Assembly: GCA_015233585.1 (NCBI GenBank)
Contig: JADFXL010000003.1
Span: 1-48,423, forward strand
DNA length: 48,423 nucleotides
Direction: 5' to 3'
From: Alphaproteobacteria bacterium
GTDB taxonomy: Bacteria; Pseudomonadota; Alphaproteobacteria; Rhodospirillales; Rhodospirillaceae
Shown here: in pieces, positions 3,438 through 7,163 of the stretch
Numbering within the stretch: the first letter of the stretch is position 1
How the letters are laid out: each line of letters starts with the position of its first letter
Notes under the pieces: model-generated
Told to the model about the DNA's origin: nothing
The model's input: only the letters and a program-made list of their open reading frames with translations
Databases searched by the model: none
Translations under genes and position numbers: made by a program

Positions 3438-3740
3438 TTAGCAGCCGCCCTGGGAGGCTATGCTGACGCAGCCTTTCTTGCCGTGACCGCTAACCACGTT
3501 CTCGATGTTCTTGGCACTGACGGCGACACTGGTTTTGCCGGTGGTGTCCTCGGTAATCGCACCTATGTTGGTCACTGCCGTGTTACCCGTGCCGGAAGCG
3601 AGGGTGCTTACGTTCTTGGCGCTGACATCGATCGTGGTGTCACCTGTAACATGCACGCCGCCCGACTGCTGGGCAGACGCCGCCTGGGATATCACCAGGG
3701 CGAGCGCCGCAAGGGCGAGCGCCGGATATTTTCTGGACAT
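3438..3740 (-). CDS. small secreted repeat protein, divergent member of the NASA-repeat family
   Basis: The ATG at 3740 (preceded by GAAAGG) gives 100 residues; a GTG at 3752 is the alternative. A signal peptide runs to about residue 24 (ALVISQAASA-QQ). The mature part has two diverged copies of the ~36-residue unit found in the three proteins upstream, recognisable by T-G-D/K-T-x-(I/V)-x-V-S-A-K-N-(V/I) followed by S-G-x-G. Unlike its relatives it contains cysteines in the C-terminal tail (KKGCVSIASQGGC). The order of genes suggests the last member of the cluster. By analogy with curli it could be a minor, nucleator or anchoring subunit, but that is inference. No known family is recognised. 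Confidence 0.75.
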   Translation of the reverse strand: MSRKYPALALAALALVISQAASAQQSGGVHVTGDTTIDVSAKNVSTLASGTGNTAVTNIGAITEDTTGKTSVAVSAKNIENVVSGHGKKGCVSIASQGGC

Positions 3741-3755
3741 GCGGGATAACACCTT

Positions 3756-4085
3756 TCACTGCACCAGCAGAATGGTCTGGGTAGGCTGAGCCTGGTAGAG
3801 CTTCTGGCTAAAGCTGTGGCCCCGTTCCAGCGAATGGTCAACGGCGGTTCCGTTTGATCGCAGCGTACTGCAATTGAAACAGCCACCGGGATAGGGTGCG
3901 GGGACCGATCCGCTTTCACGCAAGATAATGATGGTTGAATTGAAAGCTGGCTGCTGCCCGGAATCGGGCTTGATTCGCAGCGGCGTCTCCACATCGGCCG
4001 TTGCGTCAACTTCGACTCCGGCCTGCGTGAGACTCGTTGATGCCAAGGTTGCCGCAACGACGGTCGCTATGATCGCGATACGCAT
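3756..4085 (-). CDS. small secreted protein of unknown function in the repeat-protein cluster
   Basis: The 109-residue frame starts at an ATG (4085) with GGAG nine bases upstream. An N-terminal signal peptide ends near residue 22 (LTQA-GVEVDA). The mature protein is not repetitive. It has a Cys-rich turn (GGCFNCSTLRSNG) and a hydrophobic beta-like tail (TQTILLVQ). It lies in the same orientation between secreted repeat proteins, 15 bases ahead of the next start, so it is likely co-expressed with them. I considered a CsgC/CsgH-like or CsgE/F-like helper because of the position, but see no sequence motif that proves this. Confidence 0.65.
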   Translation of the reverse strand: MRIAIIATVVAATLASTSLTQAGVEVDATADVETPLRIKPDSGQQPAFNSTIIILRESGSVPAPYPGGCFNCSTLRSNGTAVDHSLERGHSFSQKLYQAQPTQTILLVQ

Positions 4086-4144
4086 GGCTTCAGTCTCCAG
4101 AGAAGGTACGGGGCCAGACCCCAGGCCTGGCCCCGCAAGCGATA

Positions 4145-4480
4145 TTACTTGCCGATACCGCCGATAACCGCCTTGGAAGAATTGCCCGTGCCGACGGCCG
4201 TGGTGTTCACGTTCTCGGCGGAAGCATTGATGTTGGTGTTGCCCTGGATCTGGGTGCCGCCACCGATGGCGCCAACGGCGGACTCGGCGGTGTTACCCTG
4301 ACCAACGGCGGTGGTGTTGATGTTCTGACCCGAGGCATTGATGTTGGTATTGCCCTGGATCTGGACGCCCTGCGGGTTGCTGCTCTGCATCGAACTCACG
4401 CCACCAGCGGATTGGGCGAACGCGGCACCGGTAAAGGTGATGGCGGCAACAGCAACGGCCACGGAAAGGATCTTGCGCAT
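4145..4480 (-). CDS. secreted NASA-repeat protein, copy 3 (curli-like architecture)
   Basis: The 111-residue protein has a signal peptide (residues 1-22, ending GAAFA-Q), a short linker, and two tandem units of about 36 residues. Each unit contains IQGNTNINAS, then (Q/E)N(I/V)NTTAVG, then a GN and an AVIGG/AVGAI turn. Regular G-N and Q-x-Q steps suggest a beta-arch or solenoid fold, reminiscent of but not identical to curlin repeats. It is extremely similar to the proteins at 4775-5125 and 5273-5608, and upstream DNA is also shared, so the set arose by tandem duplication. Extracellular or surface fibre formation is inferred. ATG at 4480 is preceded by an AAGGAACC-type ribosome site. Confidence 0.85.
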   Translation of the reverse strand: MRKILSVAVAVAAITFTGAAFAQSAGGVSSMQSSNPQGVQIQGNTNINASGQNINTTAVGQGNTAESAVGAIGGGTQIQGNTNINASAENVNTTAVGTGNSSKAVIGGIGK

Positions 4481-4638
4481 TTGATTTGGTTCCTTCGCTC
4501 TCTATTCGGTTGGATCGCTCGCCCCTTGCGGCTGCGACACTCTCCCGCCCAGGGGGGCTTCTCCCAGGGGGCCTTTCTCCAAGGCAGCACGACAGAACCA
4601 CGCCCGGAGATAATTCTCGCCGCAAAAACGCTCAAAGG

Positions 4639-4653
4639 CAATCAGGCTCTTAG
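4639..4653 (-). promoter_or_regulatory. conserved promoter element, copy upstream of the gene at 4145-4480
   Basis: On the coding strand this reads CTAAGAGCCTGATTG. Near-identical 15-mers sit ahead of the two paralogues at 5204-5218 and 5772-5786. Here it is about 160 bases from the start codon. It may be a binding site for the neighbouring response regulator or part of the core promoter. Confidence 0.5.
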
Positions 4654-4774
4654 AAAAACCACGAGTCTATATCTTCAGCCATATACTCTAGGCGGCCGGG
4701 ACAATGCCAGATTCAAATTCGTCCCGCACGGAACCAGCCGCCTAAGAAGAAACGGGACACGGCCCCATCAGCAA

Positions 4775-5125
4775 TTACTTGCCGATGCCACCGATAACCG
4801 CCTTGGAAGAATTGCTCGTGCCGGCAGCCGTGGTGTTCACGTTCTCGGCGGAAGCATTGATGTTGGTGTTGCCCTGGATCTGGGTGCCGCCACCAATGGC
4901 GCCAACGGCGGACTCGGCGGTGTTGCCCTGGCCGGCAGCAGTGGTGTTGATGTTCTGGCCCGAGGCATTGAGGTTGGTATTGCCCTGGATCTGGACGCCG
5001 CCTGGATTGGTGCTCCCTTGGGATTTGAAGCCGGGGGCCGCCACACTGCCGGCAGCTTGGGCAAACGCCGCACCAGCATAGGCAATGGAGGCAACGGCTA
5101 CCGCTATGGAAAGGATCTTGCGCAT
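4775..5125 (-). CDS. secreted NASA-repeat protein, copy 2 (curli-like architecture)
   Basis: I start this 116-residue protein at the ATG at 5125, where AGGAG lies eight bases upstream; an upstream start at 5170 would spoil the signal peptide. Residues 1-23 form a signal peptide (AGAAFA-Q). A longer Gly/Ser/Pro-containing linker than in the sister proteins is followed by two ~36-residue units with IQGNTN(L/I)NAS and NTTAAG. Both TTAVG motifs of the sisters are TTAAG here, and one GTGN is GTSN, so this copy has diverged at turn positions. Its leader is shorter (about 80 bases to the conserved element). Secretion and self-assembly are inferred. Confidence 0.83.
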   Translation of the reverse strand: MRKILSIAVAVASIAYAGAAFAQAAGSVAAPGFKSQGSTNPGGVQIQGNTNLNASGQNINTTAAGQGNTAESAVGAIGGGTQIQGNTNINASAENVNTTAAGTSNSSKAVIGGIGK

Positions 5126-5203
5126 TGTGTTTGCTCCTTTGGTTTGATTGTCCGCCCTATGTGTCTGCAACGGATCTGATTTTCGCTGCGTCCCCCTTCG
5201 AAA

Positions 5204-5218
5204 GCAATCCGGCCCTTA
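5204..5218 (-). promoter_or_regulatory. conserved promoter element, copy upstream of the gene at 4775-5125
   Basis: The coding strand reads CTAAGGGCCGGATTG, matching the elements at 4639-4653 and 5772-5786. The flanking bases also agree with the 5772 copy (an ATATCC block and a CATATA block upstream on the coding strand). Confidence 0.5.
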
Positions 5219-5272
5219 GGGATATCCGGGGGCATATACCTTTCGACGGGGAACAGGTCAGCGCTACTCCAA

Positions 5273-5608
5273 TCACTTGCCGATAGTGCCAATGTTCGCC
5301 TTGGCACTGTTACCCGTGCCGACGGCCGTGGTGTTCACATGCTCGGCGGAAGCATTGATGTTGGTGTTGCCCTGGATCTGGGTGCCGCCGCCAATGGCGC
5401 CGACATTGGATTCGGCGACGTTGTTCGAGCCGACAGCGGTGGTGTTGATGTCGTTGCCGGAGGCATTGATGTTGGTGTTGCCCTGGATCTGGACGCCGTT
5501 CGGGTTGCTGCTCTGCATCGACTTCACGCTGCCAGCGGATTGGGCGAACGCGGTACCAGTAAGGGCGATAGCAGCAACGGCAACGGCCACAGAAAGAATT
5601 TTGCGCAT
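5273..5608 (-). CDS. secreted NASA-repeat protein, copy 1 (curli-like architecture)
   Basis: The 111-residue protein starts at the ATG at 5608 with AAGGAA upstream; the longer frame to 5668 adds no signal-like sequence. Residues 1-22 form a signal peptide (GTAFA-Q). Two ~36-residue units follow, each with QIQGNTNINAS and NTTAVG, separated by a GAIGGGT turn. It is the copy nearest the divergent response regulator and so probably the first gene of the cluster. Its ~170-bp leader is homologous to that of the gene at 4145-4480, including a GC-rich palindromic stretch. Function as a surface fibre or matrix protein is inferred from repeat architecture and context only. Confidence 0.85.
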   Translation of the reverse strand: MRKILSVAVAVAAIALTGTAFAQSAGSVKSMQSSNPNGVQIQGNTNINASGNDINTTAVGSNNVAESNVGAIGGGTQIQGNTNINASAEHVNTTAVGTGNSAKANIGTIGK

Positions 5609-5771
5609 CTGATTGTTCCTTCGCTCTTTGAATCCAGTTTGATCTGCCGCTCCATGCAGTTGCGACAATCCCCCCCTGGGGGCATCGCCCAGGGGAGCGT
5701 TTCCCCGAGGATGCGGCGGCGGCCAGTGGGTCGCGCCTGCAAGTGATTCTCACCGCAAGCTCCACCGAAGA

Positions 5772-5786
5772 CAATCCGGCTATTAG
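5772..5786 (-). promoter_or_regulatory. conserved promoter element, copy upstream of the gene at 5273-5608
   Basis: The coding strand reads CTAATAGCCGGATTG. It is the third copy of the element shared by the three repeat-protein promoters and lies next to the inverted repeat at 5794-5813. Confidence 0.5.
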
Positions 5787-5793
5787 GAATATC

Positions 5794-5813
5794 CTGAAGA
5801 TATATCTCTTCAG
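5794..5813. promoter_or_regulatory. inverted repeat CTGAAGA-N6-TCTTCAG, candidate operator
   Basis: Perfect 7-base arms flank TATATC. The site lies midway between the divergent genes, about 90 bases before the regulator start. Related TATATCTTCAG sequence also occurs near 4669-4680 ahead of another paralogue. Dyad symmetry fits a dimeric LuxR-type regulator; binding is inferred. Confidence 0.45.
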
Positions 5814-5905
5814 ACATAAACATGCGCCACCAAGGGTGGCACTGTAATAAAAGTCATGCTAGACTTCCGTCGTTCGATCCTGTCCATGAAAAGGAAGAGG
5901 CTCCC

Positions 5906-6532
5906 GTGAAAATCATCATCGCCGATGACCATGCCTTGTTCCGGGGCGGCCTGAAGGCGCAACTCTCCCTGCTGGATGCCGATGGAATCATCCTTGAGGC
6001 GTGCGATTTTCCCAGTCTGCTCCAACTGGCGGCAACGGAACAGCCGGATCTGGTGGTAGCCGACCTTGGAATGCCTGGGCCACCATGGCGCGAAGCGCTG
6101 GCCACGCTGTGCCGACATGATGGAAACCGGCGAATCGTGGTGATCTCTGCCTCCGATTCCCCGGCCATCGTGCGTGAGGCCATCCGGTTGGGGGCCAACG
6201 GCTTCGTGTCCAAGGCTGAAAACCCGGAACTGTTGATGGCGGCGCTGAAGCTGGTGCTCTGCGGCGGCACCTACGTACCGCCGGCGTTCGTCTCCCAATC
6301 GGCAACCGGCACCCCTGCCAGCGATATCAAGGTCACAGGCCGCCAGCGCGAAGTTTTATCCCTGATGGCGGAGGGCCTGCCCAACAAGGAAATTGCCTAC
6401 CGCCTGAACCTGACCGAAGGCACGGTAAAATTGCACGTCGCTGCCGTGCTCAAATGCCTCAACGCCACCAACCGGACCCAGGCGGTCGGGGCCGCACGCC
6501 GCTGTGGATTGCTGGAGGCGTCGAAATCATAG
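5906..6532 (+). CDS. LuxR/NarL-family response regulator
   Basis: I choose the GTG at 5906, preceded by GGAAGAGG, which starts the receiver domain cleanly (VKIIIADDHALFRGG); the upstream in-frame residues look non-coding. The 208-residue protein has a receiver domain with acidic pair D7/D8, phosphorylation site Asp53 (VVADLGMPG) and a C-terminal LuxR helix-turn-helix at about 145-200 (GLPNKEIAYRLNLTEGTVK). It probably binds DNA as a dimer after phosphorylation. It is divergent from the secreted repeat-protein cluster, as CsgD (also a LuxR-type regulator) is from csgBAC in enterobacteria. I therefore infer that it controls that cluster. No cognate kinase is adjacent. Confidence 0.9.
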   Translation: MKIIIADDHALFRGGLKAQLSLLDADGIILEACDFPSLLQLAATEQPDLVVADLGMPGPPWREALATLCRHDGNRRIVVISASDSPAIVREAIRLGANGFVSKAENPELLMAALKLVLCGGTYVPPAFVSQSATGTPASDIKVTGRQREVLSLMAEGLPNKEIAYRLNLTEGTVKLHVAAVLKCLNATNRTQAVGAARRCGLLEASKS

Positions 6533-6800: not shown

Positions 6801-7163
6801 ATGAAAAAGAGAATGGCGGCATTGGTTGTCACCTTGGGTATGGCCTTCGCGGTCAGCAATGCGTTTGCGGCTGGCGCAATCGCCGTTGCGGACGAGGAAG
6901 GGCTGAAAGCCAGTGAAGTGGGCTATGGCATCGGCAGCGGCAGCACCCGCGATGAGGCCGGCGAAGACGCGTTGAGGGTGTGCCGGAAACACGGGAACAG
7001 CGGCTGCAAAGTGGCCGTCCGCTACGATACCTGCGGGGCCTATGCCGGTTCCAAAGAAAAATTCGGCATCGGCTGGGGCAGCAGCGAAGAGGATGCCAAA
7101 TCCAAGGCGCTGGACGACTGCGGCAGCGAGCACTGCCGGATTGTGGTATCCGACTGTCAATAA
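6801..7163 (+). CDS. secreted DUF4189-like protein
   Basis: The ATG at 6801 has GGAG seven bases upstream and is preferred to the ATG at 6789. The 120-residue protein has a signal peptide to about residue 23 (SNAFA-AGAIAV). The mature part begins GAIAVADEEG and contains two G-x-G-x-(G/S)-(T/S)-x-(D/E)-(E/D)-A modules, one before each pair of cysteines: GYGIGSGSTRDEAGEDAL and GIGWGSSEEDAKSKAL. This is the pattern of DUF4189 proteins, and six cysteines suggest disulfides in the periplasm. Biochemical function of the family is unknown to me. It stands alone between an AT-rich region and a convergent ABC gene. Confidence 0.75.
   Translation: MKKRMAALVVTLGMAFAVSNAFAAGAIAVADEEGLKASEVGYGIGSGSTRDEAGEDALRVCRKHGNSGCKVAVRYDTCGAYAGSKEKFGIGWGSSEEDAKSKALDDCGSEHCRIVVSDCQ

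Follow-up and report, generated by a model that had tools for sequence, protein, structure and literature searches.

The Fap system (functional amyloid of Pseudomonas, FapABCDEF) builds its fibre from an Asn-rich beta-solenoid subunit with imperfect repeats, and the Fap operon has a dedicated protease, FapD. In the curli system (csgBAC-csgDEFG; nucleation-precipitation or type VIII secretion), the minimal subunit repeat is X6-Q-X-G-X2-N-X10 (PMC3521004), and curlin repeats measure 23 plus or minus 5 residues with a mean of 23 (PMC10192328). A third relevant system is the Caulobacter holdfast anchor, in which HfaB, a CsgG homologue, puts HfaA and HfaD on the cell surface, where HfaA forms SDS-resistant multimers (PMC6707917). 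Here, we analysed a 48,423-nt stretch of alphaproteobacterial DNA (the window), part of which had been read in an earlier note as possibly encoding an undescribed alphaproteobacterial amyloid or surface fibre with a curli-like layout. That reading gained support from a CsgG homologue and an all-beta structure prediction, but the family proved not to be restricted to alphaproteobacteria. The system is best read as a variant of CsgG-dependent fibre (functional amyloid) systems that is not curli.

As described in the earlier note, the locus consists of five small secreted-protein genes and a response regulator gene that diverges from them; the five are arranged head to tail on the minus strand at positions 3438-5608. 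The features of the locus are as follows.

3438..3740, minus strand: diverged two-repeat protein, 100 aa, with a conserved C-terminal cysteine pair; orthologues in 10 other clusters
3756..4085, minus strand: secreted partner protein, 109 aa, unrelated to the repeat proteins; BLAST relatives at E 3e-5 and 2e-6
4145..4480, minus strand: secreted two-repeat protein, copy 3, 111 aa; AlphaFold2 model of all-beta repeats, pLDDT ~90
4775..5125, minus strand: secreted two-repeat protein, copy 2, 116 aa; family HMM E 2e-38
5273..5608, minus strand: secreted two-repeat protein, copy 1, 111 aa; signal peptide, short linker and two 37-aa units; family HMM E 7e-42
5803..5818, no strand assigned: possible operator of the TATCTC-nAAA-GnnATA type in the divergent intergenic region; borderline, weakly common to three other genomes
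5822..6532 (likely start GTG 5906), plus strand: response regulator with receiver and LuxR/GerE domains (Pfam domains, orthologues)

Copies 1 to 3, which had been called almost identical, share 75-86% protein identity in pairwise comparisons, and their DNA forms a 300-nt repeat family of 81-84% identity, far above chance. The dN/dS values among the three copies (0.24-0.30) indicated that they are kept by purifying selection on the protein. Each main copy is composed of a signal peptide, a short linker and two units spaced exactly 37 residues, one more than the ~36 first estimated, with the pattern QIQGNTNINA...N-x-x-x-x-A-x-G-x-x-N-x-A...G-x-I-G. The diverged protein at 3438-3740 was recovered as a family member by an HMM built on the first group (E 1.7e-12). 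No Pfam or NCBIfam model covers any of the five small secreted proteins, and a PDB sequence search returned nothing for the repeat protein; across these three resources, no characterised non-fibrous family matched the repeats. The AAAGGNATATRNCC motif occurs in the window at a frequency no higher than chance, and an Rfam search yielded no RNA.

The view that the repeat differs from that of curlin was upheld. The curlin repeat model PF07012 matched none of the window proteins at E values up to 5 and nothing in the genome at 1e-3, and Q-x-G-x2-N was found in 0 of 31 family members, versus five occurrences each in the E. coli CsgA and CsgB controls. With two units of 37 residues, the proteins also fall outside the curlin length and number range (23 plus or minus 5 residues, four or more repeats). 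When a repeat protein (A1) was compared directly with CsgA, the match was confined to the signal peptide.

The beta fold that had been proposed for structure prediction was obtained with AlphaFold2 (20 aligned sequences), which modelled the repeat protein as all-beta, in two identical beta units at a pLDDT of ~90, with predicted strands at residues 40-42, 45-59, 64-72 and 77-79, 82-96, 101-109. A Foldseek comparison of this model with known structures gave no significant match. Among its few weak, non-significant matches, FapC ranked first and the CsgA fibril and HET-s were also present; the values for the FapC fibril (Foldseek E 1.5; VIA-align Z 2.8, rmsd 4.2, 70 aligned) are likewise not significant. 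The likeness of the predicted model to FapC, CsgA and HET-s is suggestive only.

A scan of 84,980 species genomes with the repeat protein yielded 14 credible loci. Relatives were found in Terasakiella, a Magnetospirillum MAG, Rhodocyclaceae, Azonexus, Giesbergeria, Accumulibacter, Nitricoxidireducens and a deltaproteobacterial MAG, and the family thus extends beyond the alphaproteobacteria. Two Paenibacillus loci (L015 and L016) were discarded, their common stretch being the signal peptide only. In 10 of the 14 loci, a conserved gene set with a CsgG-like pore lies within 10 kb of a repeat gene, and the repeat genes of L007, L011, L013 and L014 have no pore nearby. The set comprises a CsgG-like protein of 500-560 aa, a secreted protein of ~200 aa and a ~105-aa 'VINGxxxIDG' protein, together with a diverged repeat protein, a secreted protein of ~110 aa, an OmpA-family protein and one to three main repeat copies. 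It further includes a putative metallopeptidase, a ~300-aa secreted protein with an invariant HExxH and an invariant Glu downstream. The 109-residue partner of the window has a relative directly 3' of the repeat gene in a same-family genome (L044) and another in the L003 cluster. At two loci we noticed unusual arrangements. In the deltaproteobacterial MAG (L005:11354-19289), the repeat genes are followed immediately by a POTRA/ShlB two-partner secretion transporter and a very large open reading frame, and at L002:9998-10600 two repeat genes of a MAG are without normal C-terminal ends, a sign of an assembly join or gene decay.

By profile alignment and modelling, the large protein of the conserved set is a CsgG homologue. 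Over its first 260 residues, the Pfam CsgG model gave E 0.0018 and 18.0 bits, just below its cut-off of 20.8, and the HfaB profile NF037935 matched at E 5e-7; at ~29 bits, the HfaB match is far under the curated cut-off of 300. A single E. coli CsgG sequence compared with the pore profile settled nothing, but a proper CsgG profile, combining sequences from alphaproteobacterial genomes with E. coli CsgG, aligned with it over 207 columns at 97.7% probability and E 1.4e-12 (hhalign profile-profile), versus 0.5% for an unrelated control profile. The AlphaFold2 pore model is of moderate quality (pLDDT 57). In Foldseek, CsgG chains filled its top ranks (E 4e-6), and VIA-align superimposed the model on CsgG with Z 10.0 and rmsd 4.6 over 188 aligned residues; three long strands followed by a long helix are predicted, as in CsgG. 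PDB sequence searches returned nothing for the CsgG part of the pore or for the HExxH protein. PG_binding_1 and DUF4384 domains make up the C-terminal part of the pore protein.

There is no CsgG-like gene within the window, as the earlier note had it, and the genome-wide search that it proposed was positive. The pore homologue of this genome lies at G000:C408:10128-11672, 300 bp from the contig end, and matches the Rhodocyclaceae copy at E 2.7e-92; the Pfam CsgG search of the genome missed it. It carries a lipobox, 'LLGC', as a signal for an outer-membrane lipoprotein; a lipobox is also present in L003 and L001 and absent from several betaproteobacterial copies. Since the pore gene lies on another contig than the repeat genes, its linkage to them in this genome is by analogy only. 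The 'VINGxxxIDG' protein was found on contig C177 (E 1e-14). In this assembly, which is ~80% complete, searches yielded no HExxH protein, no convincing partner OmpA and no match to CsgF (PF10614) at E values up to 1. An OmpA match on C126 was rejected as a part of the system, as it is without the cluster-specific N-terminal signature. The contig of the pore also bears FecR-like and CHASE2-adenylate-cyclase-like genes (L025:824-3875), and relatives of the cyclase-like gene are found near the cluster in L001 and L012.

With the pore as the sole query, a search of 249 genomes from the phylum detected it in 14 further genomes, ~6% of the sample. With a repeat HMM built solely from loci found via the repeat protein, distant two- or three-unit repeat proteins were recovered within ~3 kb of the pore in 6 of these 14 genomes, plus G026 (E 2e-14 to 2e-5). 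The same HMM run on ~130 kb of background sequence matched only the window's own genes, with no stray matches. OmpA and the 110-residue partner are also present in several of the reverse-search loci. The pore homologues of L071, L072, L073, L074 and L076 have no recognisable repeat protein nearby, and the pore may therefore export other cargo too; three of them, in one family, have a response regulator a few kb away. In a same-family genome (L046:7127-7600, plus strand; G029:C46), the secreted protein next to the pore is of another kind; it has three 'NxAxGxxNxAxQ...Q' units whose style is closer to curlin, and it is possibly another cargo of the same pore. At L047:7303-11274 (G026:C2), the pore, an OmpA and another secreted protein are flanked by Gly/Asn-rich secreted repeat proteins of three differing sequences, a variety that suggests fast diversification of the subunits.

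We consider it probable that an extracellular polymer, most likely a functional-amyloid type of beta-solenoid fibre, is built from the four repeat proteins; both fibre formation and the amyloid nature are what we infer. Like curli, the system combines small Sec-exported, Asn- and Gly-rich repeat subunits with a CsgG-homologous pore and a LuxR-type regulator that faces the subunit genes. In contrast to curli, its subunits belong to another repeat family (37 versus ~23 residues, two versus four or more units), no CsgE or CsgF family was found in the cluster, the pore is fused to PG-binding and DUF4384 domains and has OmpA and HExxH partners, and the regulator has a receiver domain, as a complete response regulator does. 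A diverged form of true curli (csgBA plus csgG) is accordingly disfavoured, and we regard it as highly improbable: the CsgG homologue, the facing LuxR-type regulator and the Asn- and Gly-rich repeats would all fit it, but PF07012 is absent from proteins and genome, none of the 31 members has Q-x-G-x2-N, the units lie outside 23 plus or minus 5 residues (PMC10192328), and the genome search gave no CsgF. With Fap, the system shares Asn-rich imperfect repeats, a beta-solenoid fibre subunit (proposed here) and a dedicated protease in the operon, of which the HExxH protein would be the analogue; it differs in having a CsgG-type pore instead of FapF and no significant structural match to FapC.

The Hfa system invites a different explanation, namely that small beta-solenoids exported through the pore decorate the cell or anchor polysaccharide as a non-amyloid coat or adhesin. 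The pore does fit the HfaB profile better than Pfam CsgG (E 5e-7), HfaB brings HfaA and HfaD to the surface with HfaA in SDS-resistant multimers (PMC6707917), and two repeats per protein are short for a fibre core. Yet the ~29 bits of the pore are far from the HfaB cut-off of 300, its partner genes and domain fusions are different, the HfaA and HfaD families have no match among the repeat proteins, and several subunit copies per locus would suggest a polymer over a stoichiometric anchor. Thus, we judge a coat or adhesin unlikely. That the repeat proteins are periplasmic or otherwise non-polymeric, their genes being mere neighbours of an unrelated CsgG-like complex, is improbable as well. The separate contigs of pore and repeat genes in this genome would agree with it, but the association recurs across several classes and was recovered in both search directions.

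For the preferred reading, a fibre, we propose that the subunits cross the inner membrane via Sec, remain unfolded in the periplasm and, once exported by the CsgG-like pore, stack on the cell surface. The role of major subunit would fall to the three similar copies, and the diverged copy with its cysteines may act as a minor or nucleating subunit. The apparatus may be held to the cell wall by the OmpA protein together with the PG-binding domain of the pore itself. In loci that have one, the HExxH protein could process subunits or clear them, and the regulator, being phosphorylatable, would activate the operon during growth on surfaces or in biofilms.

We give an even chance to the broader proposal of a separate proteobacterial functional-amyloid family, independent of curlin and FapC subunits, with 37-residue two-unit subunits, a wall-anchored CsgG-type pore (CsgG, PG-binding and DUF4384), OmpA and, in many lineages, a metallopeptidase. 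Such a family would go unseen because neither subunit nor pore passes current family cut-offs; curli surveys depend on the Pfam CsgG model and on the curlin repeat, neither of which detects the system. No description turned up in the literature search, with preprints and most subscription papers outside its scope, whether under the peptide motif, under DUF4384 combined with CsgG or under CsgG in the host taxa. Should the fibre prove real, a surface or biofilm constituent that is common among environmental and wastewater bacteria (Azonexus, Accumulibacter relatives) has escaped notice, and its two-unit subunits would offer a minimal system for seeing how the number of repeats shapes a functional amyloid.

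The regulator, whose receiver domain scores above the Pfam cut-off, has orthologues in the same position in Terasakiella, Magnetospirillum and the same-family genome G020 (50-54% pairwise identity), and in Terasakiella a dCache hybrid histidine kinase adjoins it. Its start is more likely the GTG at 5906, because the relatives begin '(M/V)KIIIADD'. The candidate operator site, common to the divergent intergenic regions of four genomes, is of borderline significance: its 18-mer scored 60 versus a maximum of 59 in 60 shuffles, and the 16-mer was exceeded by 1 of 60. No motif common to all ten upstream regions was found. Just 3' of the response regulator, at 6801-7163 on the plus strand of the window, lies a gene for a secreted DUF4189 protein (Pfam E 2.6e-17).
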